A stretch of DNA of 41,628 nt from Deltaproteobacteria bacterium (GTDB lineage Bacteria > Myxococcota_A > Polyangia > DRWM01 > JAAZOP01): positions 1 to 41,628 of the forward strand of contig JAFGHH010000565.1 of the NCBI GenBank assembly GCA_016930215.1, read 5' to 3'. The first letter of the stretch is position 1, and each line of letters starts with the position of its first letter. Below the pieces are notes generated by a model. That model did not search any database and was not told the origin of the DNA. It saw nothing but the letters and a program-made list of their open reading frames with translations. Positions 1,856-23,910 of this stretch are shown here, one piece after another. A program made the position numbers and the translations under genes.

Positions 1856-3034
1856 GTGATTGAACGTAACCTCTCAGATGAAATGATAAAAGTCGCAGGC
1901 TACTACCCGGTCGTCACGGTGGTCGGACCGCGCCAGTCGGGCAAGACTACGCTCTGCCGGGCGGTGTTTCCGCAACTGAGCTACGTGAACATGGAGCAGG
2001 CAGACGTCCGGGAGTTCGCGACCCGCGACCCTCGAGGCTTCCTCGCGGAGCACTCCGCCGGTGCGATCATCGACGAAGTCCAGCACGTTCCGGATCTGCT
2101 CGGCTATCTCCAGGCGGAGGTGGACGAGCGGCCCGAGCACGGCCGGTTCATTCTGACCGGATCGCAGCACCTGGGCCTCGCTCGCGGCGTTTCGCAGAGC
2201 CTCGCGGGCCGGACCGGAGTGCTGCAGCTGCTGCCGCCGAGTCTCGACGAGTTGCGCCGCTTCCCGCATCCGCCGGCGACGCTGCTCGAAACGCTGTGGG
2301 CTGGCGCGTATCCGCGGATCCACGACCGTGGCGTGCCCTCGGATCGGTGGCTGTCGGACTACGAGACGACCTACCTGCACCGGGACGTGCGGGATGTGCT
2401 GGCGGTGGCCGACCTGTCCGCGTTCTCCCGATTCGTGCGCCTGTGTGCCGGACGAACCGGCCAGGTCGTGAACCTGTCGGCGCTCGGGTCCGACGCGGGC
2501 GTTTCCCACAACACGGCTCGCGCATGGCTCTCGGTGCTCGAGACCACCTTCCTCGTCGTCGTGGTTCCGGCCTGGCATCGCAACCTGAAGAAGCAGCTGA
2601 CGCGGGCGCCGAAGCTCCACTTCCTCGACTCGGGGCTCGCCTGCCACCTGCTCGGGATCCGCTCGACGAATGACCTCGCCCATCATCCGCTGCGGGGAGC
2701 GATCTTCGAAAGCTGGGTCGCCTCCGAGGCGCTGAAGGCGCGGGTGCATCGCGGTCTGCCGCCGGCGATGCACCACTTCCGGGATCACAAGGGGCTGGAG
2801 GTGGACCTCGTGCTCGACCTCGGTGCCCGGGTCGGGCTCACGGAAGTCAAGGCGGGGGCGACGGTGTCCGGCGAACACCTCGCGCCGCTCCGGCGAGTCG
2901 GCGCGCTGGTGACGACGGCGGACCCCGCGACCGAGGTGATGCTTCGGCTCGTTCATGGTGGAGGCGAGACGTTCCGGCGCGAGGGTGTGCACGTCGTCCC
3001 GTGGTCCGCGGTCGATTCCGTGTCCTGGAACTGA
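1856..3034 (+). CDS. AAA+ ATPase with DUF4143 domain (COG1373 family)
   Basis: The N-terminal AAA_14 domain carries a Walker A motif, GPRQSGKTTL, and a Walker B motif, AIIDEVQHV. A sensor-like LTGSQ follows. The C-terminal DUF4143 domain ends with a PD-(D/E)XK-like pattern, EVDLVLDLG followed by TEVKAG. At 392 residues it is full length. The GTG at 1856 matches the usual family N-terminus (MIERxL). These genes are widespread, often solitary and strain-variable; their physiological role is not settled. It has its own promoter, and a second distant paralogue lies at 34497. Both seem to be independent single-gene cargo, which suggests horizontal movement (inference). Confidence 0.9.
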   Translation: MIERNLSDEMIKVAGYYPVVTVVGPRQSGKTTLCRAVFPQLSYVNMEQADVREFATRDPRGFLAEHSAGAIIDEVQHVPDLLGYLQAEVDERPEHGRFILTGSQHLGLARGVSQSLAGRTGVLQLLPPSLDELRRFPHPPATLLETLWAGAYPRIHDRGVPSDRWLSDYETTYLHRDVRDVLAVADLSAFSRFVRLCAGRTGQVVNLSALGSDAGVSHNTARAWLSVLETTFLVVVVPAWHRNLKKQLTRAPKLHFLDSGLACHLLGIRSTNDLAHHPLRGAIFESWVASEALKARVHRGLPPAMHHFRDHKGLEVDLVLDLGARVGLTEVKAGATVSGEHLAPLRRVGALVTTADPATEVMLRLVHGGGETFRREGVHVVPWSAVDSVSWN

Positions 3035-9903: not shown

Positions 9904-10226
9904 CCAGACTCCTCGCTGCGTTTGCCGCGTGCGGCTGCCTGTTCCTGGGCGGATGCGACCTGGCCTTCCACGAGTGCGGGACCGAGGGTCTGCACTGCGA
10001 GGGGGACGAGAGCGTCTGCATCTGCTCGACCGGCCGGTGCGCCGAGCCCGACCACCGCTGCGAGAGCGGCCTGCACTACTTCGGCGGACGGTGCGTCCCG
10101 GTCTCCGAGGCCGCGAGCGCCGTCGCCTCGACGCCGGACAACCCCAACGCCTGCTATGCGGACGCCCGCACCGACGTGCGTGACGAGACGTCCGACCGCT
10201 GGGAAGTCTACGACACCTGGTACTGA
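9900..10226 (+). CDS. Small cysteine-rich lipoprotein
   Basis: 108 residues. A signal peptide ends at lipobox LGGC (Cys19). The mature part has an EGF-like spacing of cysteines up to about residue 65, then a polar tail ending in DTWY. A GGAAGGGAG ribosome binding site lies upstream, and the ATG overlaps the stop of the membrane SpeE-like gene, so the two are co-translated. I do not recognise a named family; such short Cys-rich lipoproteins are common in Myxococcota. Function unknown, probably an outer-surface or periplasmic partner of the upstream membrane protein (inference). Confidence 0.75.
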   Translation: MTRLLAAFAACGCLFLGGCDLAFHECGTEGLHCEGDESVCICSTGRCAEPDHRCESGLHYFGGRCVPVSEAASAVASTPDNPNACYADARTDVRDETSDRWEVYDTWY

Positions 10227-10304
10227 GGGGCGGTCGCCGCCGTCGCTTGAGCGGAACCGTCGAACCGTGATACCACGGCCCTCGTTCGCGAAGGAGTGAG
10301 AACC

Positions 10305-11189
10305 ATGTCGATCCTGGATCGGGCGCTGCAGCTGGGTCAGCAGGTCCTCGAGTATCCGAGCCGGCGGCCGGACGGCGAGCTGGTGGAAACGCCGCACCCG
10401 TACCGCCGGATGCTGCCGTTCATGATGCGCGGCCGGAACGAGTCCGTCGTCTACTACGACGACCCGGCCCGGGCCGAGAAGCTGCTGGACTTCATCCCGC
10501 GGGCGAGCCAGGCCTTCGGGTTCGAGGTGGACATCACGCACTGCCTGGTGGCCGCCTGCCGCAAGGGGCTCTGGGAGAACCCGCGGATGAACCAGTTCAT
10601 CGCGGGCCGCCGGCTGTACCGCCGGAAGCACAACGAGCTGACCTTCTCGATGAAGCGCAAGCGCATGGACAAGGAGGCCAAGCTCTCCGCGGTCAAGCTC
10701 GTCGTCGACGACCGCTCCGAGACGTTCCGCCAGCTCTGCGAGCGGATCAACTCCCACATCCACGTGGAGCGGTCCGGCGAGGAGACCTACAGCGACAAGG
10801 AGGTGAACCTCCTCTCGCGGATCCCGCGCCCGATCATGGACGCCGGGATCTCCGCGCTGCAGTGGCTCGACTACCACAATCTCGTGCCCGGCGGCTTCAT
10901 CCGCAACGACGGGTTCTACACCAGCATCTTCATCGCCAACCTGGGCAGCCTGGGCATGCACGCCGGGTACCATCACCTCTACGAGTACGGGACCTGCCCG
11001 CTGTTCATGATGGTCGGCAAGCTCGAGGACCGCGCGGTGGTCGAGGACGGGAAGATCGTGGCCCGCAAGTTCCTGCCGGTCCGCTGGACCTACGACGAGC
11101 GGATCGACGACGGGCTCACCTCGAAGTACGGCATGCAGTCCGTGCGCGAAGGCCTCGAGAACCCCGACGAGGCCTTCGGTCTCCTCTGA
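10305..11189 (+). CDS. Stand-alone E2/CAT-fold acyltransferase-like protein with altered active site
   Basis: 294 residues from the ATG at 10305, which has AAGGAG 8 nt upstream (a GTG at 10296 is less likely). The protein matches the catalytic domain of 2-oxoacid dehydrogenase E2 subunits without the lipoyl or peripheral-subunit domains: SIFIANLGSLG corresponds to the E2 block SNLGMFG, and WTYDERIDDG aligns with the E2 motif DHRVIDG. The catalytic His is therefore Glu. It ends 1 nt from the convergent last gene of the lipid operon. It could be an acyltransferase for that pathway, an N-acylation enzyme or a non-catalytic homologue; only the fold assignment is secure. Confidence 0.75.
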   Translation: MSILDRALQLGQQVLEYPSRRPDGELVETPHPYRRMLPFMMRGRNESVVYYDDPARAEKLLDFIPRASQAFGFEVDITHCLVAACRKGLWENPRMNQFIAGRRLYRRKHNELTFSMKRKRMDKEAKLSAVKLVVDDRSETFRQLCERINSHIHVERSGEETYSDKEVNLLSRIPRPIMDAGISALQWLDYHNLVPGGFIRNDGFYTSIFIANLGSLGMHAGYHHLYEYGTCPLFMMVGKLEDRAVVEDGKIVARKFLPVRWTYDERIDDGLTSKYGMQSVREGLENPDEAFGLL

Positions 11190-11190
11190 G

Positions 11191-12006
11191 TCAGCGCTTC
11201 GCGCCGGCCTTGCGGATGTCGCTGTCGAACATCGCGTGCGCGACGCCCGGCAGCATGCGGTAGGCCCACTCCTGGATCCGGGCCGAGGCGCTGGGCACGA
11301 TCTGGAACTGGCCCTTGGCCATGCCGGACACCAGCGCCTGGGCCACGTACTCGGCGGACAGTGCCTTCACGTTGCCCGCAATCGCCCGGGTCTCGGCCGG
11401 CTTGTACGGGTCCTCGAACTCGAGCTGCGGGGTCTCGGTGTCCGGCGGGTAGCAGACCGACACGCGGATGCCGAGCGGCTTCAGCTCGCAGCGCAGGGCC
11501 TGGGCGAACCCGCGGATCGCGAACTTGCTCGCCGAGTACGCCGTGTAGCCGTAGATGCCGATCAGGCCGGCGAACGACGACATCATCGCCACGTGCCCGT
11601 GCTTCCGCTCGAGCATGCCCGGCAGCACGGTCCGGATCAGGTGTACCGGCCCCAGGAAGTTCGTCTGCATCATGTCGTCGAACTGCCCGTCGGGCAGCTC
11701 GAGGAACCGGCCGGGCATCACCACGCCGGCGTTGCTGATCAGCACGTCCACCGGGAACCCGGCCAGGACCCCCGGGAGCTTCGCGTCCACGGCCGCCCGG
11801 TCGCGCAGGTCGAGCGACAGGGTCCGTACCGGCTCGGCGCCCGACGCGATCGTGTCCAGCTCGGACTTCGCCCGCGCCAGCTTCGCCTCGTCGCGGGCCA
11901 CGAGCAGCAGGTGCGCGCCCTGCCGGCGCAGCAGCCCGGCCGTCGCCAGACCGATGCCGCTCGAGCCGCCGGTCACCAGGACCCGTTCGTTCCGGAAGTA
12001 GTCCAT
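11191..12006 (-). CDS. 3-ketosphinganine reductase-like SDR (KDSR family)
   Basis: 271-residue short-chain dehydrogenase. TGGSSGIG (12-19) binds NADPH; the catalytic residues are Ser143/144, Tyr157 and Lys161 in YSASK. The stretches TAYSASKFAIRGFAQAL and CYPPDTETP followed by KPAETRAI closely resemble eukaryotic 3-ketodihydrosphingosine reductase (FVT1/KDSR), from memory of that sequence. The expected reaction is NADPH reduction of the 3-keto group made by an oxoamine synthase, and one is encoded by the first gene of this operon. It is the last gene, 68 nt after the ACP gene. A generic SDR role is possible, but the co-occurrence argues for sphingoid chemistry. Confidence 0.85.
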   Translation of the reverse strand: MDYFRNERVLVTGGSSGIGLATAGLLRRQGAHLLLVARDEAKLARAKSELDTIASGAEPVRTLSLDLRDRAAVDAKLPGVLAGFPVDVLISNAGVVMPGRFLELPDGQFDDMMQTNFLGPVHLIRTVLPGMLERKHGHVAMMSSFAGLIGIYGYTAYSASKFAIRGFAQALRCELKPLGIRVSVCYPPDTETPQLEFEDPYKPAETRAIAGNVKALSAEYVAQALVSGMAKGQFQIVPSASARIQEWAYRMLPGVAHAMFDSDIRKAGAKR

Positions 12007-12074
12007 CTCCCCACCTGTTCGGGAACGCCGCGGCGGCGAAGGTGACGTCGGGCGAGCGCCCGGCGCCGGCGACG

Positions 12075-12344
12075 TCAGGCCGCCTGCTCCTTCTCGACCG
12101 CCGTCTTGTGCAGCAGGTCCACCAGCTCGTTGACGTTGTTGAGCTTGGCGAGCTCGGCGCGCGGGACCTTGATCTTGAGGTCGCGCATCGTGCAGGAAAC
12201 CACCTCCACGATGTCCAGGCTGTTGGCCCCCAGCGCCTTCATCGACTTGGCCGGGTCGAACTTCGACTCGTCCATGTCCTCGACGTTGTCGGCCAGGTGC
12301 TGCTTGACGATCTTGAGGATCTCTTCCTTGGTCGGTGCTGCCAT
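12075..12344 (-). CDS. Acyl carrier protein, donor-ACP type of beta-branching cassettes
   Basis: 89 residues. The phosphopantetheine serine is S42 in GANSLDIVEVV; most ACPs have GADSLD or GxDSL. The Asn-Ser-Leu/Ile form followed by a MxxLxxKIPRxEL stretch is what I recall for donor ACPs of HMG-synthase cassettes (AcpK/CurB type). That fits the HMG-ACP synthase and two crotonases in the same operon. It is the only carrier protein in the cluster, so acceptor chains may come from the primary fatty-acid synthase ACP (inference). AcpS encoded in the operon is a plausible activator. Confidence 0.9.
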   Translation of the reverse strand: MAAPTKEEILKIVKQHLADNVEDMDESKFDPAKSMKALGANSLDIVEVVSCTMRDLKIKVPRAELAKLNNVNELVDLLHKTAVEKEQAA

Positions 12345-12406
12345 CGTGTCTGCTCCTTGGGCTCCGTTCCTCGCTCGGCGCGCTTCATACGTGACCGGAG
12401 GCGAGA

Positions 12407-13219
12407 TTACAAGCCGTACTCGCCCCGATGCTCGAAGAGGCGCATGAGGTTATTGCCGAAACAGACCCCCTTGTCGAGCAGGATCACCTGCCCGGACACC
12501 GCGTCCATCAGACCGCTCGTCAGGGCCACGACCGCGTGTGCGACTTCGCTCGCCTCCAGCACGTAGTCGCCGCCGCCGTACTTCCGCAGGAACGGCTCGA
12601 ACTCCGGCCCGAAGGTCGCCTGCAGCGAGTCGGTGGACACGGGTCGCGCCCGCAGCACGTTCAGCCGGATGTCCTCGTCCCACAGCAGGGTGTTGAGGTA
12701 CCGGCAGAAGGTCTCCATGACCTTCTTCGAGGCGGCGACGAAGTCGTAGCCCGGGTAGTAGTCCTCCACGCCGTCGCTCGACAGGCCGATCGCGTACCGC
12801 GGGTACCGGCCGAAGACCTTGTGGTGGTGCTGCAGGTAGCCCACGAACGGCCAGGCGCTGTAGCCGATGCTCTTCTGCAGGGAGCGCCGCTGGTAGTCCT
12901 CCAGCGCGCCGGTCACCTGGGCGAAGGCGACGTTGCTCACCAGGACCTCGAGCCCCGCGTGGTCCTTGCGGATCGTCTCGAGGAGGCGGGTCGTGTCCGC
13001 ATCCTCGGCCACGTCGGCCTCGAGCACCACGGGGACGCCGGCGTCCGCCTCGGCGAACCGGGCGCGGACCGCGTCCTCCGGGACCGAGCCCCACTTGTGG
13101 GTCAGGTAGACGTGGGCGCCCAGGCGGCCGTAGGCGAGCCCGGTGGCCAGCCCGATGCCCTTGGTGCCGCCGGTGACCAGCACGGCCTTGCCGCGGAAGT
13201 CGTTGGGAAGTGCGATCAC
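12407..13219 (-). CDS. FabL-type enoyl-ACP reductase-like SDR, copy 1
   Basis: 270 residues from a GTG that overlaps the upstream TGA by 4 nt (GTGA at 13216-13219). TGGTKGIGLATG is the cofactor loop. The catalytic pattern is YX6K (YDFVAASK), as in FabI/FabL enoyl reductases, rather than the YX3K of ketoreductases. The C-terminal SGLMDAVSGQVILLDKG is also FabI/FabL-like. Predicted role: NAD(P)H reduction of an enoyl-ACP in the operon pathway. It is clearly a tandem paralogue of the next gene upstream, sharing the C-terminal NNLMRLFEHRGEYGL/DNLMRVYRHREEYGL block. It is followed by a 62-nt gap before the ACP gene. Confidence 0.85.
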   Translation of the reverse strand: MIALPNDFRGKAVLVTGGTKGIGLATGLAYGRLGAHVYLTHKWGSVPEDAVRARFAEADAGVPVVLEADVAEDADTTRLLETIRKDHAGLEVLVSNVAFAQVTGALEDYQRRSLQKSIGYSAWPFVGYLQHHHKVFGRYPRYAIGLSSDGVEDYYPGYDFVAASKKVMETFCRYLNTLLWDEDIRLNVLRARPVSTDSLQATFGPEFEPFLRKYGGGDYVLEASEVAHAVVALTSGLMDAVSGQVILLDKGVCFGNNLMRLFEHRGEYGL

Positions 13220-14025
13220 GGCAGTCCGTACTCCTCGCGGTGCCGGTACACCCGCATCAGGTTGTCCGCGAACGGGCTGCCCTTGTCCACGTTGAGGATC
13301 TGCCCGTTGAACGCGTCGAAGAGGCCGCTGCACAGGGCCAGGATCGCGTCCGCCACCTGCTCGCAGGTGATGAAGTGGCTCTCCCCGCCGTACCGCCGCA
13401 CGAACTCCGGGTACGCCTCGCCGTGCACGGCCAGGGCCGACTCGGTGAGCACGTTGCGGGTGCGCAGGATGTTGATCCGCGCCCCCTCGGGCGCGAGGTG
13501 CCGCACCAGGTACGGGCAGAGCGCCTCCATCACGGCCTTGGACAGCGCCACGTACTCGTAGCCCTGGTAGTAGTTGTCCGGCCCGTCGCTGGACGTGCCC
13601 ACGGTGTACCGCGGGTAGCGGCCGAAGGTCCGCTTGACGTGCTGCAGGTACGCGACCAGCGGCCAGGCGCTGTACTCGAGGCTCTTGTCCAGCGCGCGGC
13701 GGGAGTAGCTCTCCACGCCCTGGGCGATCTGCACCACGCACACGTTGCTGAGGAACACCTCGAGCCGCTCGTGGTCCTTCCGGACCTGCTCGAGCAGCGC
13801 GACGGTCTCCGGGTCCTTGGACACGTCGGCCTCGACGATCGCCGGCTCGGGCGCGCCCGCGGCCGCGAACTTCGCCCGAACCTCGGACTCGTCCGCCGAG
13901 CCCCACCGGTGGGTCAGGTAGCAGTGCGCTCCATGGCGGCCGAAGGCGAGGCCCGTGGCCAGGCCGATGCCCTTGGTGCCGCCGGTGATCAGCACGGCCT
14001 TGCCGTGGAAGTCGTTCAGGGTCAC
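13216..14025 (-). CDS. FabL-type enoyl-ACP reductase-like SDR, copy 2
   Basis: 269 residues; GTG start at 14025 overlapping the ECH2 stop (GTGA), with AAGGGGAG upstream. TGGTKGIGLATG cofactor loop; YX6K motif YEYVALSK; C-terminal SGLFDAFNGQILNVDKG. It is a diverged tandem duplicate of the downstream gene. Two enoyl reductases in one small operon suggest two different enoyl substrates, for example the straight-chain and the beta-methyl-branched enoyl-ACP (inference), or a heteromeric enzyme. Ketoreductase activity is less likely because a separate FabG gene is present. Confidence 0.85.
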   Translation of the reverse strand: MTLNDFHGKAVLITGGTKGIGLATGLAFGRHGAHCYLTHRWGSADESEVRAKFAAAGAPEPAIVEADVSKDPETVALLEQVRKDHERLEVFLSNVCVVQIAQGVESYSRRALDKSLEYSAWPLVAYLQHVKRTFGRYPRYTVGTSSDGPDNYYQGYEYVALSKAVMEALCPYLVRHLAPEGARINILRTRNVLTESALAVHGEAYPEFVRRYGGESHFITCEQVADAILALCSGLFDAFNGQILNVDKGSPFADNLMRVYRHREEYGLP

Positions 14026-14798
14026 GGGGTCTCCCCTTCCCGGCCCGGTTCCGGCCGCGTGTAGTTCTCGAGGATCCGCTGCCGGGTCTCGGGCTGCGCG
14101 AAGCACAGGCGGTGCATCGCCGCCTCCAGCGTCCGGGTCTCCTCGAACATCCGCCGGTGCCGGATCGACAGGTTCGCCTTGAGGGTCACCAGGGCGTGGC
14201 GCGGCTTGTCCGCGATGCGCTTCGCGATCTGCAGCGCCCTGGGCCACACCTGCTCCCGGGGCAGCACGTGGTTGACCCCGGACCGCGCCTCGAACCGCGC
14301 CCCCCGGATGATCTCGCCGCCGAACATCATCTCCCGCGCCAGGTACTCGCCCACCGCGTCCTGCAGCAGCCGCGTGATGCCCATGCCCGGCGTGAAGCCC
14401 ATGTTCATGAAGCTGCAGCCGTAGCGACTCTCGCGGGCCATCAGCAGCACGTCGCAGCACAGCCCGAGGGCGAGGCCGCCGCCCACCGCGTGGCCCTCCA
14501 TCGCAGCGATGGACGGCACGGGCAGGTCGAGCACCGCCTTGGAGAGCAGGATGTCCGCGGCGTCCACCTCGCCCGAGGTCAGCTCGAGCAGCAGGTCCTG
14601 GTGCGCCCCGGCGCAGAAGATCCCGGGCAGGCCGCGGAGCAGGATGACCCGCACCGACCCGTCCGTCGCGGCGGCCCGCAGGACCGCCTGCAGCTCGTCC
14701 ACGAACGGCTCCGTGAACGCGTTCCGGTTCGCCTCGTCCCGCATCGTCACCACGGCGATGCCGTCGTCCTCGCGGGCCAGGGTCACGCGCTCGGTCAT
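14022..14798 (-). CDS. ECH2 crotonase, PksI/CurF-type 3-methylglutaconyl-ACP decarboxylase
   Basis: 258-residue crotonase-fold protein. FMNMGFTPGMGITRLL, the AADILLSKAVLDLPVPSIAA stretch and ADKPRHALVTLK closely match the ECH2 enzymes of polyketide beta-branching (PksI, BaeI, MupK, CurF domain), which decarboxylate 3-methylglutaconyl-ACP to a 3-methylcrotonyl-type product. The second Glu typical of hydratases is missing from the FxxMGFTPG region, as expected for ECH2. The ATG has GGGAGG upstream and overlaps the ECH1 stop by 4 nt. The adjacent HCS and ECH1 genes make an ordinary fatty-acid oxidation hydratase unlikely. Confidence 0.85.
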   Translation of the reverse strand: MTERVTLAREDDGIAVVTMRDEANRNAFTEPFVDELQAVLRAAATDGSVRVILLRGLPGIFCAGAHQDLLLELTSGEVDAADILLSKAVLDLPVPSIAAMEGHAVGGGLALGLCCDVLLMARESRYGCSFMNMGFTPGMGITRLLQDAVGEYLAREMMFGGEIIRGARFEARSGVNHVLPREQVWPRALQIAKRIADKPRHALVTLKANLSIRHRRMFEETRTLEAAMHRLCFAQPETRQRILENYTRPEPGREGETP

Positions 14799-15583
14799 TC
14801 GTTCCTCCCGCGGAGCGTCCGCCACCACGGCGCCGGCTCGCCCTCCAGGAAAGCGCGGAGCGCGGCGACCCGCTCGGGGTCGCCCACCAGGGCCGCGGTG
14901 TGATCCGCCCCGAGGTGCAGGCCCCGGTCGGGGTCGTGCGCGGCCACCGCGTCGCCGAGCGCCTTGAGTCCGGCCACCGCCTCCGGACAGGCGCGCAACA
15001 GGTGCCGGAGGATCGGCCGCAGCGCGCGCTCGAGCAGCGCCGGGTCCTCCACCAGGTGGTCGGCCAGGCCCAGCTCGACGGCCCGCCGCCCGTCCACGCC
15101 GCTCGTCAGGGCGAGCCACCGCGCCCGGCGCGGGCCCAGGCGCTCGTGGAGGATCGGGAGGATCACCGCGGGCACCAGGCCGAGGGCCACCTCGGGCAGG
15201 GCGAAGGTCGCCTGGGCCGTCGCCACCACGACGTCCGCGACCGCGGCCAGGCCCACCCCGCCACCCAGCGCCGCGCCGTCCACCACGGCCACCACGGGCC
15301 GCGGCGAGCGCCGCAGCCGCCCCAGCAGGGAGGCGAACGCATGGACGTGCTGGGCCGCGTCCGGGGCGCCGTCCGCCACGGCCTGGAGGTCCATCCCCTC
15401 GCAGAACGTGCCGTCCGTGCCCTCGAGCACGAGCACCCGGCACTCGTCGCTCGCCTCCGCCCCGGCCACGGCAGCCTCCAGCGCGGCCACGCCGGCGGCG
15501 TCGAGGCGGATGTGCCCGCCTTCCCCGGGCGCGAGCCGGACGCGGTGGACCGCGGGATCCCCCCTGTCGACCGCGACCCGCAT
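14795..15583 (-). CDS. ECH1 crotonase, PksH/CurE-type HMG-ACP dehydratase
   Basis: 262-residue crotonase. VLEGTDGTFCEGMDLQAV and ALGGGVGLAAVADVVVAT followed by FALPEVALGLVPAVILPILHERLG match ECH1 enzymes (PksH, CurE), which dehydrate 3-hydroxy-3-methylglutaryl-ACP to 3-methylglutaconyl-ACP. The hydratase-type Glu in ALPEVALGL is kept. Its ATG shares one base with the HCS stop (TGATG), so translation is coupled. Order HCS-ECH1-ECH2 is the classical cassette order. A generic enoyl-CoA hydratase is the alternative, less likely in this context. Confidence 0.83.
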   Translation of the reverse strand: MRVAVDRGDPAVHRVRLAPGEGGHIRLDAAGVAALEAAVAGAEASDECRVLVLEGTDGTFCEGMDLQAVADGAPDAAQHVHAFASLLGRLRRSPRPVVAVVDGAALGGGVGLAAVADVVVATAQATFALPEVALGLVPAVILPILHERLGPRRARWLALTSGVDGRRAVELGLADHLVEDPALLERALRPILRHLLRACPEAVAGLKALGDAVAAHDPDRGLHLGADHTAALVGDPERVAALRAFLEGEPAPWWRTLRGRNE

Positions 15584-16827
15584 CAGCTCCACCCGTACTC
15601 CCGGAAGTGGTTCTTGATGCCCTGGAACACCAGCGCGCCCCGGCCCGCGTACCGCTCCGCGTAGTGGCCGGCCGGGACGTCGTGCGTGGGCACGTAGTCC
15701 CCGCAATCGATCAGGCGCTGCCGCTCCCGCTCGAGCGTCTCGTACTCCTCGAGGGTGAGCACGCGGCGGGCGTCGAGCTGCGCCTGGAGCTTCACCGCGG
15801 CGCAGGCGGCCCGGGCGTCCGGGCCGATGACCCCGGGGTAGAACTCGCCGCCCGACCCCGAGCCGTAGGAGAACAGGCTGACCCGGTCCCCGGGCTTCAC
15901 GTCGGGGCAGGAATCGACCAGTCCGAGGAGCGCGAAGAACGTGCTGGCCGAGTAGGTGCCGCCGAGCTGCATGTTGTAGCGCAGCGAGGGCAGGACCTTG
16001 CGCGAGAAGTGCGCGTAGGCCTCGCTCTTCTTGAGCGACCGCCAGTGGCGCAGGGCCGTGCGGTGGGCCTGGAAGGCCATGCCGCCGAAGGGCACGTGGT
16101 ACAGGTGCCACTGGAAGAACGCGTCGAGGTCGATCGGCCCGGCCTTGGACAGGAAGTGCTGGTAGGCCCCTTCGAGGGCGTCGAGGTACGAGAACAGGCT
16201 GACCTCGTTGTTCCCGGTCTCCACGCGCGACGTGGGCCGGAAGGTGTCCATCGCCTCGCAGGTGAAGTAGCCGTTCCGGGTCAGGTCGAGCTGCAGGAGC
16301 CGGGGCTCCTCGGAGAGCAGCAGCGCCACCGCCCCCGCGCCCATCACGTACTCGTAGTGCTCGTTCAGGCTCTCGCGGCTCTGGTCGGTGGCGATCACCA
16401 GCGCCTTCCGGCCGGGCGCCACGCCGGAGGCGAGCCAGTGCGCGGCCATCATCACGGCCGAGGTGGCGCCGTAGCAGGCGTGCTTGGCCTCGTAGTTGCG
16501 GCAGTTCGGCTTGAGCCCCAGGAAGCGATGCGCGTAGGTGCTCATCGCCTTGCTCTGGTCCACCGACGATTCGGTGGCCACGATCACCAGCTCGACGGCC
16601 TCGCGGTCGGCGTCGGTCAGCATCCCCTTCGCCGCGTTGATCGCCATCGTGACCGGGTCCTCCCACAGCGGGTTGATCGACCGCGAGGTCACCAGCAGAT
16701 TCTGCGAGATGTCCTTCGGGTCGTGGTCCCGGCGGCGGGCGAGGTCGAGCAGGTCCACGGCGAGCGTGCCGGCGTAGGCCCCGATCTTCTCGATGCCGAC
16801 CTGGCTCAGGCGCGGGTTCGTGGTCAT
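15583..16827 (-). CDS. HMG-ACP synthase (HCS) of the polyketide beta-branching type
   Basis: 414 residues, thiolase-fold. The acylatable cysteine is C118 in EAKHACYGATSAV, the catalytic Glu lies in ATESSVDQSKA (about residue 86), and the catalytic His is H244 in WHLYHVPFGGM. These are the PksG/CurD/MvaS signatures. With ECH1, ECH2 and a donor ACP alongside, it most likely adds an acetyl unit from acetyl-ACP to the beta-keto group of an acyl-ACP. No HMG-CoA reductase or mevalonate gene is nearby, which argues against a mevalonate role. It lies 23 nt after fabG, with GGAG about 11 nt before the ATG. Confidence 0.92.
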   Translation of the reverse strand: MTTNPRLSQVGIEKIGAYAGTLAVDLLDLARRRDHDPKDISQNLLVTSRSINPLWEDPVTMAINAAKGMLTDADREAVELVIVATESSVDQSKAMSTYAHRFLGLKPNCRNYEAKHACYGATSAVMMAAHWLASGVAPGRKALVIATDQSRESLNEHYEYVMGAGAVALLLSEEPRLLQLDLTRNGYFTCEAMDTFRPTSRVETGNNEVSLFSYLDALEGAYQHFLSKAGPIDLDAFFQWHLYHVPFGGMAFQAHRTALRHWRSLKKSEAYAHFSRKVLPSLRYNMQLGGTYSASTFFALLGLVDSCPDVKPGDRVSLFSYGSGSGGEFYPGVIGPDARAACAAVKLQAQLDARRVLTLEEYETLERERQRLIDCGDYVPTHDVPAGHYAERYAGRGALVFQGIKNHFREYGWS

Positions 16828-16850
16828 GGTGTCGGGCTCCGGTGCGCGGC

Positions 16851-17591
16851 TCAGGCGGCGTGGTCCAGGCCGCCGGTGACGGAGATCTCCGCGCCGTTGA
16901 CGTAGGAGGCCGCCGGGGAGGCGAGGAAGGTGATCACGCCGGCGATCTCGGACACGTTGCCGATGCGCCGGATCGGGCAGTAGGCGGCCCAGAAGTCGCG
17001 GAACTTGTCGGTCATCGACTCCCGCGTCATCTCGGTGTCGAAGAAGCCGGGAATCACCACGTTGGCCGTGATGCCCTTGGGGCCGTACTCCTTGGCCAGC
17101 GTCTTGGTCAGCCCGACGATGCCCGCCTTCGCCGCGGCGTAGTTGGCCTGGCCCGACGCGCCCCCGGCGGAGACCGAGGACACGTTGATGATCCGGCCGA
17201 AGCGGTTGACCAGCATCCCCGTCAGGAAGAACCGGCTCACGTAGAACGGGCCGTGCAGGTTGGTGGCCAGCACGTCGTGCCACTCCTCGTCGGACATCGA
17301 GACCACGAGGTTGTCGCGGTTGATGGCCGCGTTGTTCACGACGACCTCCGGGTCGCCCAGGTCCGCCTGGATCTGCTCGCCCACGCGCTCCACCTCGGCG
17401 GCGCTCCGCACGTCCATGCGGTAGGCCTTGACCCGGCTACCCGCGCGCAGCGCGGCGGCCTCGGCCGCCACGGCCGCGGCCTTCTGCTCGCTGCCCAGGT
17501 AGGTGAACGCCACGTCGTGCCCCTCGGAAACGGCCCGGCGCACGACCTCGGCGCCGATTCCGCGAGAGCCCCCGGTCACGAGGAACAGCAT
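16851..17591 (-). CDS. fabG: 3-oxoacyl-ACP reductase (FabG-like)
   Basis: 246-residue classical SDR of FabG length. TGGSRGIG cofactor loop, VNNAAINRD, and the Ser-Tyr-Lys triad in NVSSVSAGGASGQANYAAAK (YX3K). C-terminal GAEISVTGGLDH. It reduces 3-ketoacyl-ACP with NADPH. AGGGAGG lies just upstream of the ATG. It sits between the ketosynthase (19 nt gap) and HCS genes, so it competes with HCS for the same 3-ketoacyl-ACP: reduction leads to a straight chain, HCS to a branch (inference). The product in the cluster could also be the hydroxyacyl intermediate fed to the FabZ-like enzyme. Confidence 0.9.
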   Translation of the reverse strand: MLFLVTGGSRGIGAEVVRRAVSEGHDVAFTYLGSEQKAAAVAAEAAALRAGSRVKAYRMDVRSAAEVERVGEQIQADLGDPEVVVNNAAINRDNLVVSMSDEEWHDVLATNLHGPFYVSRFFLTGMLVNRFGRIINVSSVSAGGASGQANYAAAKAGIVGLTKTLAKEYGPKGITANVVIPGFFDTEMTRESMTDKFRDFWAAYCPIRRIGNVSEIAGVITFLASPAASYVNGAEISVTGGLDHAA

Positions 17592-17610
17592 GGAAGCCTC
17601 CCTTCCCGGA

Positions 17611-18891
17611 CTAGTCCGGCTTGCGGAACAGCGCGCAGCAGTTGATGCCGCCGAAGCCGAACGAGTTCTTCAACAGGGTCCGCACCGGGTGCACGACGGC
17701 CCGGTTGGCGCAGACGTCGAGGTCCACCTCGGGGTCGAGGCGGTCGATGTTGATCGAGGGGTGCAGGGTGCCGTGCCGCATCTGCAGCAGCGCGGCCACG
17801 GTCTCGGTGGCCGGCGCGGCCCAGCAGGTGTGGCCCAGCATCGATTTGGTGGCGTTGATCTTCAGCTTCTGCGCGTGGCTGCCGAAGACCTCCTTGATCG
17901 ACCGGATCTCCGCGACGTCGCCGAGCGGCGTGGACGTCGCGTGGGCGCTCACGTAGTCGACTTCCTCGGGCCGGACGCCGGTGCTCCGGAGCAGCCGGCG
18001 CATCGTCCGCGCCTGCCCCTCCACCGAGGGCACCGGCAGGTGCGACCCGTCCGAGCCCGTGGACACGCCGAGCACCTCGGCGTGGAGGCGCGCGCCGCGG
18101 CGCCGCGCGTGCTCGAGCTCCTCCAGCACCAGCACCCCGGTGCCGTGGGCCGGGATGAACCCTTCGCGGTCCGCGTCGTAGGGCCGGCTGGCACGGTGCG
18201 GCTCGTCGTGGAAGGCCTTCCAGGAGATGGCACCCATGATCGCCATCGCCTGCAGGTCCACCGGCGAGAAGTCGAGCACCGCCCCGGCGACGATCATCAC
18301 GTCGAGGTCGTGGTACCGGATCTCGTCGAGCGCGTTGCGCAGCGCCAGGTTCGCGCTCGCGCACGCCCCGCCCATCGTGTAGACGGGCCCGTGCAGGCCC
18401 AGCGCGTCGCCCACGCTGGCGGCCTGGTCGGTGTCGAGCCCGTGCAGGGCCAGCATCGAGTCGATGTACTCCGGCTCCACGGTGAACTGGACGTTGTTGC
18501 GGTACACCAGGTTGTTGGCGAGGTTGTGGCCGCCGACCACCACGCCGGTGCGATCCGGGTCGTAGCCCTCGGGGAGCCCGGCATCGAGCATCCCGTCGGC
18601 GGCGCAGAGCAGCGTGAGCCGCGTGGAGAACGGCGCCTTCTTGACCAGCCGCCGGAGCCGCTTCGTCACGTCGGCGGGCAGCCGCGACGCGAGCGCGTCG
18701 AGCTTCGCCGCCGTGTCGTAGCCCGTGAGGTCGCCGCCGACCTTGGAGAGGCTCCGGTCCGCACCCTCGAACCTCCACCGGGTGATGGCCGACTTCCCGG
18801 CGATCAGGTTCCCGTAGAAGGTGTCCAGCGTGTCCCCGATCGGGACGTTGATCGCCATGCCGCTGACCACCACGCGCCTCGCCTTCTCCAT
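17611..18891 (-). CDS. Beta-ketoacyl-ACP synthase (FabF/KAS-II type)
   Basis: 426 residues. The condensing-enzyme triad is complete: Cys in GGACASANLAL, His in SAHATSTPLGD and His in KSMLGHTCWAAP. The stretch GGHNLANNLVYRNNVQF recalls ketosynthases of HMG-synthase cassettes. In many of those cassettes a companion ketosynthase has Ser in place of Cys and only decarboxylates malonyl-ACP; here Cys is retained, so the enzyme may elongate as well as supply acetyl-ACP. It is the only ketosynthase in the operon. AAGGA precedes the ATG. The context gives no chain-length factor and no second subunit. Confidence 0.9.
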   Translation of the reverse strand: MEKARRVVVSGMAINVPIGDTLDTFYGNLIAGKSAITRWRFEGADRSLSKVGGDLTGYDTAAKLDALASRLPADVTKRLRRLVKKAPFSTRLTLLCAADGMLDAGLPEGYDPDRTGVVVGGHNLANNLVYRNNVQFTVEPEYIDSMLALHGLDTDQAASVGDALGLHGPVYTMGGACASANLALRNALDEIRYHDLDVMIVAGAVLDFSPVDLQAMAIMGAISWKAFHDEPHRASRPYDADREGFIPAHGTGVLVLEELEHARRRGARLHAEVLGVSTGSDGSHLPVPSVEGQARTMRRLLRSTGVRPEEVDYVSAHATSTPLGDVAEIRSIKEVFGSHAQKLKINATKSMLGHTCWAAPATETVAALLQMRHGTLHPSINIDRLDPEVDLDVCANRAVVHPVRTLLKNSFGFGGINCCALFRKPD

Positions 18892-18918
18892 CGTCGTTCC
18901 TTCCGCCGCCCGGCCGGG

Positions 18919-19452
18919 CTACGCCTCGAGCTCGTACGCTTCCATGATCGCGAACGCCACCAGGGTCTCGTCCCGGAGGACCTGCCCGGCGAGGGTCTCG
19001 GTGTAGCCCCCGGGCTCGTCGAGGAGCCGGCCGACCAGCGTCAGCCGGTCGCCGGGCCGCGCCTCGGCCAGGAACGACGCGTGGTGCAGCTTGAGCAGCC
19101 GCACCGACCGCGGCCGGTCCTCGGGCGCGGGCGCGGTCCGACCCGAGAGGGCGAGCTGGCTGATGCAGAGCCCGAGCTGCCCCATCGCCTCGAGCAGCAG
19201 CACCCCGGGGAAGACCGGGTCGCCGGGGAAATGGCCGACCAGCACCGGGTCCGCGGGGTCCACGGTCCGGGTGCCGAGCGCGGCGCGGGCCGCCAGGTCC
19301 ACGGCGTGGATGCGGTCCACGAGCAGGAACGGCGGCCGGTGCGGGATCAGCCGCTCGATCTCGGCGCGACCCAGGTCCACCGCGACCGTCGCCTCGCCCG
19401 CGGTGAAGAGCGGCCGCTTCCGGCCGACCTTGATCAGTTGCTCGAACTCCAT
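18919..19452 (-). CDS. fabZ: FabZ-like 3-hydroxyacyl-ACP dehydratase
   Basis: 177-residue hot-dog protein. LIPHRPPFLLVDRI and GHFPGDPVFPGVLLLEAMGQ carry the catalytic His and Glu of FabZ/FabA. The ATG at 19452 (MEFEQLIK) is preferred; 12 further codons upstream are open but not conserved. It is slightly longer than typical FabZ because of an N-terminal extension before the LIPHRPP block and a mid-protein APEDRPRS insertion. It dehydrates 3-hydroxyacyl-ACP to trans-2-enoyl-ACP, the substrate of the two enoyl reductases. 27 nt separate it from the ketosynthase gene. Confidence 0.92.
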   Translation of the reverse strand: MEFEQLIKVGRKRPLFTAGEATVAVDLGRAEIERLIPHRPPFLLVDRIHAVDLAARAALGTRTVDPADPVLVGHFPGDPVFPGVLLLEAMGQLGLCISQLALSGRTAPAPEDRPRSVRLLKLHHASFLAEARPGDRLTLVGRLLDEPGGYTETLAGQVLRDETLVAFAIMEAYELEA

Positions 19453-19468
19453 CGGGGCTCCGGGAGAA

Positions 19469-20431
19469 TCAGTTCGTGCGGAACGCATGCAGGCGCAGCG
19501 ACTCGATCACGGTCGATAGGTGCTCGAGCGGTACGTCGCCGCTGTCCACGAACAGCTTCTCGTTGCGCCGCCACTTCCGGTCCAACATGTTGTGCAGGAC
19601 CTTCTTGGGCCCGACCTCGAGGAAGAACGCGTCCGGGTGAAGCTCGGCGATCCGGTCGATCGATTTGCGCCAGAAGGTCCGGTTGCAGACGTGCGTCGAG
19701 AGCAGCTCGATGAACGTCTCGCGGTCCGGGTCGTTGATCAGCTCGCCCAGCCGGTTGGGCACGTACGGCCGCCCCGGCCGGCGGAACTCGAGCCCCTCGA
19801 GGTATCCGCGGAACGCCCGACACACCGGCTCGAACATCGAGCTGTGCATCGGCAGCTGGTGGTCGATCATCACCGCCTGCGCGAAGTACTCCGCCTCGAG
19901 CAGCCGCAACGCCTCCTTCACGGCGTCGTGCTCCCCCGCGATCACGTACTGGCGCGGCGTGTTCAGGTTCACCACCTCGACCAGGCCCGCCGACCGCGCC
20001 CGGGCGACCACGTCGTCGAGCTCCTCGAGCTCGATCGGGAACACCGACGCCATGCAGCCGCGCGGCCCCTGGTCGTAGAGCATCCCGCGCTGCTCCACCG
20101 CCCGCAGCGCGTCCTCGAAGGTCAGCGCGCGGATGTGCACCAGGTGGTTCCACTCGCCGAGGCTCAGGCCCAGGGAAAGCGCCGCGTTGACCCCCGACGC
20201 CTCCAGCACCTGCAGGAACATGTGGTTGGCCAGGAACACGCTGACCTGCACGTCGCGGTTCGTCGCGTAGGCGTCCGGGTTGTCGACCCGGTACTGCTCG
20301 TAGAGGTTGCGGTTCAGGATGTGCGAGGCCCAGTCCAGCACGTGCCGGTTGACTCGGTGCAGGCCCGTCAGCTTCTCCAGCATGCCGGGATAGCGCGAGT
20401 TCTGGCCGGGGAACATGAAGACCAACGTCAT
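19469..20431 (-). CDS. Acyl/malonyl-ACP transferase (FabD-like) with GLSLG nucleophile motif
   Basis: 320 residues. It begins with FMFPGQNSRYPGM, as FabD/AT domains do. The nucleophile elbow reads GLSLG where nearly all relatives have GHSLG or GHSIG; the Ser is intact. The catalytic His appears in LPMHSSMFEP, and the Arg that binds malonyl carboxylate in FabD is present in VEQRGMLYDQ. Predicted role: load malonyl onto the operon ACP. The His-to-Leu change in the elbow might alter activity or favour hydrolysis, as in trans-acting editing ATs; this is not resolved. The ATG overlaps the acpS stop by 4 nt. Confidence 0.85.
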   Translation of the reverse strand: MTLVFMFPGQNSRYPGMLEKLTGLHRVNRHVLDWASHILNRNLYEQYRVDNPDAYATNRDVQVSVFLANHMFLQVLEASGVNAALSLGLSLGEWNHLVHIRALTFEDALRAVEQRGMLYDQGPRGCMASVFPIELEELDDVVARARSAGLVEVVNLNTPRQYVIAGEHDAVKEALRLLEAEYFAQAVMIDHQLPMHSSMFEPVCRAFRGYLEGLEFRRPGRPYVPNRLGELINDPDRETFIELLSTHVCNRTFWRKSIDRIAELHPDAFFLEVGPKKVLHNMLDRKWRRNEKLFVDSGDVPLEHLSTVIESLRLHAFRTN

Positions 20432-20805
20432 GGCATCACCATCACACAGGCCACGGAGTAGTCGGTCTCGTGGCTGATCGAGAGCAGGGTCGTGAACGAC
20501 CGGGAGCCGGTCACCCGCTCCAGGTCGGCCCGCAGCTCGGGACTGCGCACCGCAAGCTCCGGTTGCCCCGTCGAACGATGGACGACCTCGAGTCGGCTGA
20601 GGTCGTAGCCGAGCACGCTGAGGCCCACCGCCTTGAGGCAGGCCTCCTTGGCCGCCCAGCGCGCCGCGAGGTGCTGCTCCGGCACCCGCGCCCCGGCACA
20701 GTACTCCACCTCCGCCGGAGAGAAGACCTCGTCCCGGAGGAACGGCGAGCGCTCGAGCGCCTTCCTCAGGCGCGCCGTGGAGCAGATGTCGATGCCCAGG
20801 AACAT
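20428..20805 (-). CDS. acpS: Holo-ACP synthase (AcpS-type phosphopantetheinyl transferase)
   Basis: 125 residues, normal AcpS length. FLGIDICSTARLRKAL holds the metal-binding Asp, and LAARWAAKEACLKAVG is the signature helix with the catalytic Glu. SISHETDYSVACVM is the C-terminal strand. It transfers the phosphopantetheine arm from CoA to the conserved serine of ACP, here probably S42 of the operon ACP. It starts 13 nt after the oxoamine synthase gene and overlaps the AT gene (ATGA). Having its own AcpS suggests that the operon is self-sufficient. It may be the genome's only AcpS or a dedicated one; the window does not tell. Confidence 0.92.
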   Translation of the reverse strand: MFLGIDICSTARLRKALERSPFLRDEVFSPAEVEYCAGARVPEQHLAARWAAKEACLKAVGLSVLGYDLSRLEVVHRSTGQPELAVRSPELRADLERVTGSRSFTTLLSISHETDYSVACVMVMP

Positions 20806-20818
20806 CGGATCTCCGCCC

Positions 20819-22303
20819 CTACTGCTTCCAGATCCGACCGAGGACCTGCCGGGCCTTGCCGGTCACCTCGTCGGCCACGGCACCGGAGAGCTGCCGCAGC
20901 GTGTCCACCTTGCCCCGCCAACCCGCGGCCACCGCCGTCCCCGGCAACGGGGCCGTGGTCGGGATCGTGGTCGTGGTCGTGGTCGTCGTCGTCGTCGTCG
21001 TCGGGATCGTGGTCCCCGTCGATGCCGGTTGCGCCGGCTGCGCGGCCTTGGCCCGCGCCGGGAACAGCCGCCGCACGATCGTGTCCTCGATGATCGCCAC
21101 CGCCTCGTCCAGGTCCCGCTTCGTGTGCGCCGCCGTGACCGCCGCCCGGTACCGGAGCTGGTCCTCGGGCACCGACGGGTAGTCCACGGGGGCGAGGAAC
21201 AGGCCCTTCTCCTGCATCTCGTGACACAGCTCATAGAGCATCTGCCGGTCCGAGCCGATCACGATCGGGACCACGTGGGTCGTGGATTGGCCCAGGTTCA
21301 GACCGAGGTCCAGAAGCTTCTTCCGGAAGTACGCGGTGTTCTCGCGGAGCCGATTGCGGCGTTCGTCGTCACGCGTCGCCAGCTCGAGCGCCGTGAGCAG
21401 GCCGGCCACCACGGACGGCGGCAGCGCGCAGGAGAAGCCGTAGGGGTGCGAATAATAGCGCAGGTAGTCGATCGTGTCCGCGTTGCCGCTGACGAACCCG
21501 CCCACCGAGGCGAAGCCCTTGCTGAACGTGGCGAACACCAGGGCCACCCGGTCCTCGACGCCGAAGTGCTCGGTCACGCCGCGACCGTGGGCGCCGCAGG
21601 CCAGGATCGAGTGCGCCTCGTCGATCATCACGCCGACGCCGTGCTTCTCGGCAACCTCGAGCAGCGCCGGCAGGTCGGCCATGTCCCCGTCCATCGAGTA
21701 GATGCCCTCGACCACCACGATGCGGCGCTTGCCGGCCGTCGCCGCCAGGGCCTCGTCCAGGGATTTCGGGTCGTTGTGGTCGAAGAACACGCTCTTGGCG
21801 CGAGCCAGGTTGGGCCCCGCGATCAGGCACAGGTGGCACTTGGCGTCCAGGATCGCCACGTCGCCCTTGCGCAGCAACCCGGCCAGACAGCCCATCGCCC
21901 CGCCGAACCCGCTGTTGAACAACATCGTCGCCGGCCGCTGCATGAACGCCGAGAGCCGCTCCTCGAGCCGCGCGTGCAGGTCCGTCTTGCCCGACAACAG
22001 CGGCGAGCCGCAGGCGCCCGTGCCGTAGCGGTCGAGGGCCTCCTGCGCGGCCCGGATGACCTGCGGGTCCTCGGCGAACGCCATGTAGTTGTACGAGCTC
22101 AGGTTGATGGCCGAGTGGACGGCACCCCCCCGCTCGACCCGGACCCGCGGGCCGGCCGGACCACGAAGCCGCGGCTCGTACAGGCTGGTGGCCCAGGCCG
22201 TGGCCTTCCTCCAGGCCACGTACTCGGCCGGCGGCACCAGCGGGTCGCTGCTGTCGCTGAAGAAGAAATCAGCCAGGCTGTAGTCGGCGGTGCGCTCACC
22301 CAT
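20819..22303 (-). CDS. Alpha-oxoamine synthase (serine palmitoyltransferase-like) with poly-Thr tail
   Basis: 494 residues, fold-type I PLP enzyme. LSSYNYMAF, GTGACGSPLLSG, the PLP-stacking His in DAKCHLCL (about 157), MIDEAHSILACGAHGRG and the PLP lysine K262 in FATFSKGFASVGGF are diagnostic of the AOS family (SPT, KBL, BioF). It condenses an acyl thioester with an amino acid with loss of CO2 to a 3-keto-amine. A KDSR-like reductase in the operon points to SPT-type chemistry; the adjacent ACP suggests acyl-ACP as donor. After residue 425 a Pro/Thr linker with 12 consecutive Thr (435-446) leads to an amphipathic tail (461-494), not part of the family core. The ATG at 22303 is chosen because homology starts there; the frame is open 86 codons further upstream without similarity. 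Confidence 0.9.
   Translation of the reverse strand: MGERTADYSLADFFFSDSSDPLVPPAEYVAWRKATAWATSLYEPRLRGPAGPRVRVERGGAVHSAINLSSYNYMAFAEDPQVIRAAQEALDRYGTGACGSPLLSGKTDLHARLEERLSAFMQRPATMLFNSGFGGAMGCLAGLLRKGDVAILDAKCHLCLIAGPNLARAKSVFFDHNDPKSLDEALAATAGKRRIVVVEGIYSMDGDMADLPALLEVAEKHGVGVMIDEAHSILACGAHGRGVTEHFGVEDRVALVFATFSKGFASVGGFVSGNADTIDYLRYYSHPYGFSCALPPSVVAGLLTALELATRDDERRNRLRENTAYFRKKLLDLGLNLGQSTTHVVPIVIGSDRQMLYELCHEMQEKGLFLAPVDYPSVPEDQLRYRAAVTAAHTKRDLDEAVAIIEDTIVRRLFPARAKAAQPAQPASTGTTIPTTTTTTTTTTTTIPTTAPLPGTAVAAGWRGKVDTLRQLSGAVADEVTGKARQVLGRIWKQ
20966..21001 (-). repeat. Trinucleotide repeat encoding 12 threonines
   Basis: The plus strand reads as tandem GTC/GTG triplets, which the minus strand reads as ACC/ACG/ACGAC-type Thr codons in the oxoamine synthase linker. 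The run is flanked on both sides by a copy of GGGATCGTGGTC, encoding ThrThrIlePro or its neighbour. Length change in multiples of three would alter only the linker length. Confidence 0.85.
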
Positions 22304-22698: not shown

Positions 22699-23910
22699 CT
22701 ACTCGGTACGCGACGCGTCGGGCCGCGGGAGCCGGAGCACCAGGTCCGATACCGGGTACGCCATGCAGGGGTGGATGAACCCGGCCTCGAGGTCCGTGGC
22801 GCGGAGCGCCGCGCCCGGAGGATGGAACACGCGCCCCTCGAGCAGCCGGGTGCGGCAGGTGGCGCAGACCCCGGAGCGGCACAGCGCCGGTACCACGACG
22901 CCCGCACGCTCCAGCGCGTTCATCAGCGGCTCGCCCGCCCGTGCCGAAACCGTCCGGTCCCCCGGGGCGAGTCGGACCGCGAACCGCGTGTCCGCGGAGA
23001 GCCCGCGCGGCCATCCGGGCTCGGCCGTCACGTTCGCGGGCGGACCGTAGGCCTCGGTGCGGACGCGGTGCGCGGGTACGCCCATCCGCGGCAGCTCGGC
23101 CCGGGCGAGGGCGAGCAGCGGCGCGGGCCCGCACACGAACGCGCTCATCCCCGCGAGCCGCTCGGCGGGCACGTGCCGCAGCACGCAGGCGCCGTCGATG
23201 AACCCCCGGTCGCCCGCCCAGCCCGGACCGGGCTCGGAGAGGACGTGCTCCACCTGCAGGTGGTCCGGCCGCTCGGCCTCGAGCCGCGCCAGGCGCTCGC
23301 GCAGCAGGATGTCCGCCTCGGTGCGCGACCCGAACAGCAGCACGGCGCGGACCGGCGAACTGCTCGCGGCCAGCTCCTCGAGGATGCCGAGGAACGGAGC
23401 CACGCCCGAGCCGCCCGCCACCAGCAAGAGGTCCGGCCGGTCGCGCAGCGGGTCGTAGAAGAAGTCCCCGGCCGGCCCGGAGAGCTCCAGCGTCTCCCCC
23501 TCGGCCACGTGGTCCACCAGGTGCGGGGACACGAAGCCCCCGGCCTGGCGCCGCACGAGGATCGTGACCGCGTCCCGACGCGTGGCCGGCGAGGCCAGGC
23601 TGAACGGCCGGCTCGTCCGGACCCCGTCCACGGTGACGAAGACGTTCACGTACTGGCCCGACTCGAACATCGGCAGCGGACCGGCCTCGGGCGCGAGCGT
23701 GAGCAGCGCCGCCGACACGCCGGCCGGTTCGTGGCGGATCACCCGGACGCGGATCCGGTCCGGATGGTGCTGCGCCACGGCCGCGAGCTGATCCTCGAGC
23801 CGGTACTCGAAGGACCGCGGCCGGAGGGCGTTCCAGAGCTGTCGGCCGAAGGTCCCCAGGACGTGCACGCCGTCCACGAGGAGCGGGAGGTACTCGCCGG
23901 CGGGCTTCAT
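22699..23910 (-). CDS. FNR-type oxidoreductase with C-terminal 2Fe-2S ferredoxin domain
   Basis: 403 residues. An N-terminal FAD-binding domain (RPFSLASP, about 101-108) and an NAD(P) domain (VAGGSGVAPFLGIL, FVCGPAPLL) are followed by a plant-type 2Fe-2S domain with C344-X4-C349-X2-C352 and C382. This is the layout of reductase components of oxygenases and desaturases (phenol hydroxylase/PaaE-like), passing electrons from NAD(P)H to a partner. The first 40 residues resemble reductases paired with membrane fatty acid desaturases, but no such desaturase is in the window. The ATG overlaps the stop of the flavoprotein gene by 4 nt, so that flavoprotein may be the partner (inference). Confidence 0.88.
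   Translation of the reverse strand: MKPAGEYLPLLVDGVHVLGTFGRQLWNALRPRSFEYRLEDQLAAVAQHHPDRIRVRVIRHEPAGVSAALLTLAPEAGPLPMFESGQYVNVFVTVDGVRTSRPFSLASPATRRDAVTILVRRQAGGFVSPHLVDHVAEGETLELSGPAGDFFYDPLRDRPDLLLVAGGSGVAPFLGILEELAASSSPVRAVLLFGSRTEADILLRERLARLEAERPDHLQVEHVLSEPGPGWAGDRGFIDGACVLRHVPAERLAGMSAFVCGPAPLLALARAELPRMGVPAHRVRTEAYGPPANVTAEPGWPRGLSADTRFAVRLAPGDRTVSARAGEPLMNALERAGVVVPALCRSGVCATCRTRLLEGRVFHPPGAALRATDLEAGFIHPCMAYPVSDLVLRLPRPDASRTE

Follow-up and report, generated by a model that had tools for sequence, protein, structure and literature searches.

A candidate type II synthase with a beta-branching cassette and an alpha-oxoamine synthase in one operon of a Polyangia bacterium

What might a bacterium make with an enzyme of the sphingoid-base type and the machinery of polyketide beta-branching encoded side by side? 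The question is raised by contig JAFGHH010000565.1 of assembly GCA_016930215.1, from a Deltaproteobacteria bacterium placed in the Polyangia. Its positions 1 to 41,628 are called the window here. Its minus strand (22303-11191) carries an operon of 13 genes. The answer that we favour, and hold to be fairly probable, is that these genes specify a dedicated type II synthase with a beta-branching cassette, its own acyl carrier protein (ACP) and an AcpS, which would feed an alpha-oxoamine synthase (AOS) to give a sphingoid-type base. This reading draws on the families of the genes, their synteny and phylogeny, the conservation of catalytic residues and linkage to ceramide genes.

Each of the 13 enzymes is encoded as a separate protein, with a single ketosynthase (KS) and a single ACP among them. 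In the order of transcription they are as follows.

20819..22303, minus strand: AOS, a pyridoxal phosphate-dependent alpha-oxoamine synthase with a core of about residues 1-412, a Thr-rich linker and a C-terminal tail; best Protein Data Bank (PDB) match 3a2b
20428..20805, minus strand: AcpS-type phosphopantetheinyl transferase; Pfam ACPS 57.5 bits, cut-off 25
19469..20431, minus strand: malonyl transferase (AT), FabD/MdcH-like; Pfam Acyl_transf_1 above cut-off
18919..19488, minus strand: FabZ-like 3-hydroxyacyl-ACP dehydratase (DH); Pfam FabA-like above cut-off, NCBIfam FabZ 85 bits, under the cut-off of 113
17611..18891, minus strand: KS, FabF-like, Cys-His-His; NCBIfam best PRK07103 (polyketide KS) 346 bits, under the cut-off of 445
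16851..17591, minus strand: FabG-like ketoreductase (KR); NCBIfam 3-oxoacyl-ACP reductase 250 bits, below cut-off
15583..16827, minus strand: hydroxymethylglutaryl (HMG)-ACP synthase-type protein (HCS); CurD and PksG nearest in the PDB and in the tree
14795..15583, minus strand: crotonase-fold enoyl-CoA hydratase-type protein (ECH1), presumed 3-methylglutaconyl dehydratase; Pfam ECH_1 113 bits, conserved cassette position
14022..14798, minus strand: ECH2, PksI/CurF-type decarboxylase; NCBIfam PRK07110 295 bits, cut-off 215
13216..14025, minus strand: FabI/FabL-like enoyl reductase (ER1) with Y-x6-K; NCBIfam best FabL, below cut-off
12407..13219, minus strand: second FabI/FabL-like enoyl reductase (ER2); NCBIfam best FabL, below cut-off; Y-x6-K in 21 of 21
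12075..12344, minus strand: ACP, AcpK (donor)-like, GANSLD motif; NCBIfam best PRK07117, 65 bits
11191..12006, minus strand: short-chain dehydrogenase/reductase (SDR), presumed 3-keto reductase, KDSR-like; KdsR model 103 bits, cut-off 400

A preliminary description of this DNA had reported an operon of these families with overlapping genes. Family searches with each protein confirmed the 13 genes and put every named family at its place. Six neighbouring pairs do overlap, namely AcpS/AT (4 bp), AT/DH (20), HCS/ECH1 (1), ECH1/ECH2 (4), ECH2/ER1 (4) and ER1/ER2 (4), and the remaining gaps measure 13-68 bp, so the layout is that of one transcript. Scans for promoters and terminators turned up no site that convinces.

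Families and phylogeny of the enzymes

The best PDB scores of HCS are to CurD (295 bits) and PksG (254 bits), whereas mevalonate HMG-CoA synthases reach at most 197, the score of the Myxococcus enzyme. In the tree, the HCSs from the operons group together, with CurD plus PksG as their sister (support 100/99) and the mevalonate type excluded. Two further HMG-CoA synthases are encoded in the genome from which the window comes and both group away from the operon protein; one of them (L002; loci are cited by L number) has M. xanthus MvaS as its best match, at 300 bits. The Glu-Cys-His triad is invariant in 39 of 39 sequences. ECH2 tells a similar story, with CurF at 156 bits and PksI at 148 in the PDB, the next match at 99, and the C-terminal His kept in 32 of 33. 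The residues that we take to be numbered Tyr82 and Lys86 in CurF are not matched at the aligned positions. That either protein belongs to mevalonate synthesis or leucine catabolism is ruled out, by the tree for HCS and by the family score for ECH2.

The preliminary description had spoken of a full cassette, and this stood in part. The HCS and ECH2 types hold and the ACP appears donor-like: PRK07117, presumably an AcpK-type family, misses its cut-off of 79 bits, but the next family reaches 31, and the Ser is present in 29 of 30. However, ECH1 is not clearly of the PksH type. PRK07112, which we take to be the PksH-type family, ranks third with 111 bits, below cut-off, and the PksH structure scores 62 bits. 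Nor was an acceptor ACP seen (discussed later). Judged from its families, the set appears to be a reduced beta-branching cassette that resembles the known ones in most respects. The other chain-building enzymes keep their catalytic features. AT retains the GxSxG Ser and the His in 31 of 31, the GHFPGxP motif of DH is conserved among homologues, KR has its active-site Tyr and Lys in 37 of 37, and ER1, with both FabI and FabL within its top three PDB matches, has Y-x6-K in 41 of 41.

The best PDB match of the AOS is the serine palmitoyltransferase (SPT) 3a2b, at 257 bits. The catalytic His, Asp, His, Lys and Arg all align, and a TFSK motif is found as in SPTs, where KBL and BioF have GK. In the tree, the operon clade lies apart from KBL (100/100), from BioF and from four SPT references (100/98). 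KBL and BioF, the assignments against which the preliminary description proposed to check the protein, are thereby ruled out. The NCBIfam SPT models score below cut-off. Because the clades are separate, 'SPT-like AOS' is a better name than 'SPT'.

What if the amino acid is not serine? The same synthase and branching could then serve an AOS that takes alanine, glycine or cysteate, and the product would be a 1-deoxysphingoid base, an aminoketone or a capnine-type sulfonolipid base. A clade of its own outside the SPTs is what such an enzyme might show, cysteate acyltransferase is among the PDB matches (206 bits, against 257 for SPT), and two members of the operon family are in Bacteroidota (L029, L034). 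However, the top match and the TFSK motif are SPT-like, and a cysteate-forming enzyme was not recognised among the window genes examined. We regard this alternative as unlikely, and serine as the most likely substrate on present family evidence.

The main AOS clade (99/95) is found only within this operon. The operons of L004, L007, L010 and L022 are without an AOS, and each of these genomes encodes one elsewhere that falls into a second clade (95/99). L031 has a member of this second clade as part of its operon, and so does the split operon of L024/L099. The presence of second-clade enzymes both in genomes with an AOS-less operon and in operons themselves indicates that AOS and branching synthase belong together and that at least two AOS lineages have been recruited. 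The large neighbours upstream in L004 and L007 were considered as polyketide synthases (PKSs) replacing the AOS; they are not PKSs and by eye resemble RecB/RecD helicases.

Some AOS genes have features of their own. The L062 operon has two different ones (3434, 5855), one from each branch of the operon clade. In the window, positions 20819-21060 (minus strand) encode the Thr-rich linker, with 12 consecutive Thr in mixed ACG and ACC codons, and the C-terminal tail. The Plesiocystis-type enzymes have a different, longer tail.

Distribution and ceramide-gene neighbours

With HCS as the query, 84,980 genomes were scanned and 34 loci obtained. The hosts include several Nannocystis species, strains and metagenome-assembled genomes, Plesiocystis pacifica, Sandaracinaceae and Polyangia, together with an acidobacterial genome (L020), an Eisenbacteria metagenome-assembled genome (L005) and the two Bacteroidota. 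Three spirochaete matches (L035-L037) are no more than distant relatives of HMG-CoA synthase. The core is present at about 35 loci, in Myxococcota (Nannocystis, Plesiocystis), Acidobacteriota and Bacteroidota, and its order AT-DH-KS-KR-HCS-ECH1-ECH2-ER, followed by ER or ACP, is kept across loci at protein identities mostly of 40-80%. Since this order recurs in dozens of distant loci, the operon is not a product of chance. In about 26 loci an AOS stands next to the core. The SDR adjoins the operon also in L004, L007, L020, L029 and L109, the last from the same genome as L034.

The next link is with ceramide synthesis. The references were the E. coli BL21 sphingolipid genes yghO, FAAL (fatty acyl-AMP ligase), epimerase, ACP and spt, named according to the study that describes the rhodobacterial genes spt, acpR, aasR, epi and aca and their counterparts in Caulobacter (CC_1162-1165 and CC_1154) and E. 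coli BL21 (PMC9386255). In Caulobacter the corresponding genes are needed for dihydroceramide (PMC9386255), and the BL21 spt gene is flanked by the YghO, FAAL, epimerase and ACP families. At many loci the operon has as neighbours a protein of some 380 amino acids with weak GNAT similarity and an NAD epimerase-like reductase. The former is homologous, along almost its whole length, to the bacterial dihydroceramide N-acyltransferase YghO/CC_1154 (the better matches share 32-40% identity, with E values down to 1e-86). It stands beside the operon in eight genomes (L010, L016, L025, L027, L031, L034, L057 and L059), and YghO homologues, adjoining or elsewhere, occur in most genomes with the operon. 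The reductase has 26-31% identity to the BL21 epimerase (E to 1e-36), and CerR-like reductases of this kind are neighbours of the operon in Nannocystis, L010, L027, L057 and L059. L016 and L025 also have a FAAL that matches AasR (36-37% identity, E to 1e-122) and an extra ACP. At Nannocystis loci (for example L011, 2082-4605) a divergent CerR-like reductase is accompanied by what looks by eye like a sugar nucleotidyltransferase, perhaps for making a head group.

Could the operon instead serve secondary metabolism and make no lipid base, its product being, say, an antibiotic such as a pyrrole or an aminoketone, of the kind for which prodigiosin-type pathways use an AOS? The patchy spread (12 of 379 Myxococcota genomes) would suit this, as would the weak grouping of the AOS with PigH-like AOS (44/86); a second genome of the window's own genus is also without the operon. 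However, a comparison of gene families across loci found no NRPS, oxidase or other tailoring families travelling with it, while ceramide-type N-acyltransferase and reductase genes do, and the core is conserved across phyla. This makes a secondary metabolite improbable. That the cassette only makes an isovaleryl starter for general iso-fatty acids, with the AOS incidental, is highly improbable: HCS-ECH1-ECH2 do stand alone in L021 and L024, and iso-fatty acids are widely used by myxobacteria, but some 26 loci have the adjoining AOS, genomes without it there have a related AOS elsewhere, and the dedicated ACP and AcpS suggest a separate pathway.

Predicted route and precedents

A type II synthase feeding an AOS thus appears the better account of the operon. 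The preliminary description had interpreted it as making a methyl-branched sphingoid-like base on a dedicated ACP, and the HCS tree, the ECH2 family, the AOS trees and the ceramide-gene neighbours support that interpretation. Every reaction, amino acid, branch position and product that follows is a prediction from sequence. AcpS would activate the ACP, AT would load malonyl onto it, and KS, KR, DH and ER would extend it to a chain that is saturated. HCS would act at one or more beta-keto stages, where it would attach a C2 unit, taken from acetyl-ACP, at the beta-carbon. ECH1 would then dehydrate and ECH2 decarboxylate, leaving a methyl branch with a double bond that one of the two ERs would reduce. 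Presumably one ER serves the normal cycle and the other the beta-methyl enoyl. Branching at the acetoacetyl stage would make 3-methylbutyryl (isovaleryl)-ACP the starter, and the chain would be iso-branched, whereas later branching would give a mid-chain methyl. The AOS would condense the acyl-ACP with an amino acid to a 3-keto-2-amino lipid, releasing the chain, and the SDR (in relatives a CerR-type epimerase/reductase) would reduce this to the sphingoid-type base. In many relatives a YghO/CC_1154-type enzyme may then N-acylate it to a ceramide-like lipid.

Several observations weigh against this reading. Since the AOS falls outside the clade of SPT references, we can only infer serine as its substrate. 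The SDR had been called KDSR-like, and a weak resemblance is there, with yeast KDSR TSC10 at 88 bits in the PDB (top match 106). However, the curated KdsR model stays far below its cut-off and PRK06181 is the best model, at 174 bits. Textbook beta-branching cassettes include a decarboxylating KS with a Cys-to-Ser change, whereas the operon KS keeps its catalytic Cys in 35 of 36 homologues; this single KS probably also elongates. A separate acceptor ACP was not seen in the operon, the lone ACP being donor-like. Some loci depart from the pattern. The L056 operon (7593-13435) has HCS, ERs, ACP, KS, KR, DH and AOS and is without ECH1, ECH2 and AT. On the L099 contig KS-KR-ER-ER diverge from ACP-AOS-AT-DH, with no HCS on that contig; L024, where HCS-ECH1-ECH2 have a contig to themselves, makes up a split system with it. 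Finally, a YghO homologue was not found in the window's own genome, which is 84% complete. The association of aca (YghO/CC_1154) with the AOS operon therefore holds for the operon family and not for the window, which has instead the KDSR-like SDR inside the operon and a convergent gene for a CAT-fold protein. In every homologue found of the latter, the catalytic His of HxxxDG is replaced by Glu (DERIDDG).

The closest precedent is the PKS-derived sphingolipid pathway PfSgaAB (2025) of Pseudomonas fluorescens MYb115, in which an iterative type I PKS feeds an AOS to give 3-ketosphinganine and a KDSR homologue is proposed to act next (PMC12134224). As in the operon, a polyketide-type synthase rather than general fatty acid synthesis supplies the AOS (PMC12134224), so the principle of a PKS that feeds an AOS is already known. 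However, PfSgaAB has one iterative type I PKS in place of discrete enzymes with a dedicated ACP and a beta-branching cassette, and no such cassette is mentioned in its description (PMC12134224). The rhodobacterial set resembles the operon in its AOS with a dedicated ACP, and homologues of aca/YghO and epi/CerR adjoin the operon in relatives, those of FAAL and ACP in two loci. It differs in that AasR activates fatty acids, whereas the operon includes a full chain-building and branching set and an AOS of another clade.

The bacillaene (PksFGHI/AcpK) and curacin (CurD-CurF) cassettes are alike in HCS phylogeny, PksI/CurF-type ECH2, HCS-ECH1-ECH2 order and, apparently, an AcpK-like ACP. In contrast to these, the partner here is a type II synthase plus AOS and not a modular PKS, the KS keeps its Cys, an acceptor ACP is not recognised and the HCS forms a separate sister clade. 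Myxococcus has an alternative, mevalonate-derived route to isovaleryl-CoA. There too HMG-type chemistry can yield an isovaleryl unit, but that route is CoA-based and uses a mevalonate-type synthase, whereas the operon HCS is of the CurD/PksG type and has an ACP.

PKSs feeding an AOS (PMC12134224), dedicated ACPs for SPT (PMC9386255) and beta-branching cassettes are thus all known. In the open-licence papers searched, few of which concern Nannocystis lipids, so that the negative is a weak one, we found no report joining AOS, dedicated ACP and beta-branching in one operon. Does the operon family represent a widespread, unrecognised route in which HMG-ACP chemistry, without leucine, installs the methyl branch of a sphingoid base and a type II synthase hands its chain directly to an AOS, possibly after repeated branching? 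This wider claim could go either way. Repeated use of the cassette might give multiply branched bases. If the claim is true, this would be a second, independent bacterial route from a polyketide-type synthase to sphingolipid bases and the first with built-in beta-branching. Methyl-branched sphingoid bases would be predicted in cultured Nannocystis and Plesiocystis, and surveys of bacterial sphingolipids that use canonical SPT alone would be incomplete. It would also give enzymologists a compact system for beta-branching that needs no giant PKS.

Other genes of the window

One neighbour is a possible partner of the operon.

10296..11189, plus strand: CAT/E2-fold protein, convergent with the operon; Pfam 2-oxoacid_dh 41.6 bits

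The gene adjoins the operon in three loci (the window, L006 and L007) and is found for the most part in genomes that lack YghO (Fisher p 0.03 over 21 genomes, with kinship ignored). Given the His-to-Glu change in all homologues, it is not claimed to be an N-acyltransferase. Upstream of the operon, 23907-25412 encodes a CrtI/carotenoid isomerase-like flavin (FAD) oxidoreductase. It was left out of the operon because no homologue lies within related operon loci; one in the same genome adjoins a mevalonate-type HMG-CoA synthase (L003). Near the two ends of the window lie two ATPase-like genes (1856-3034 and 34287-35756) that are related to each other by eye and by sequence clustering.

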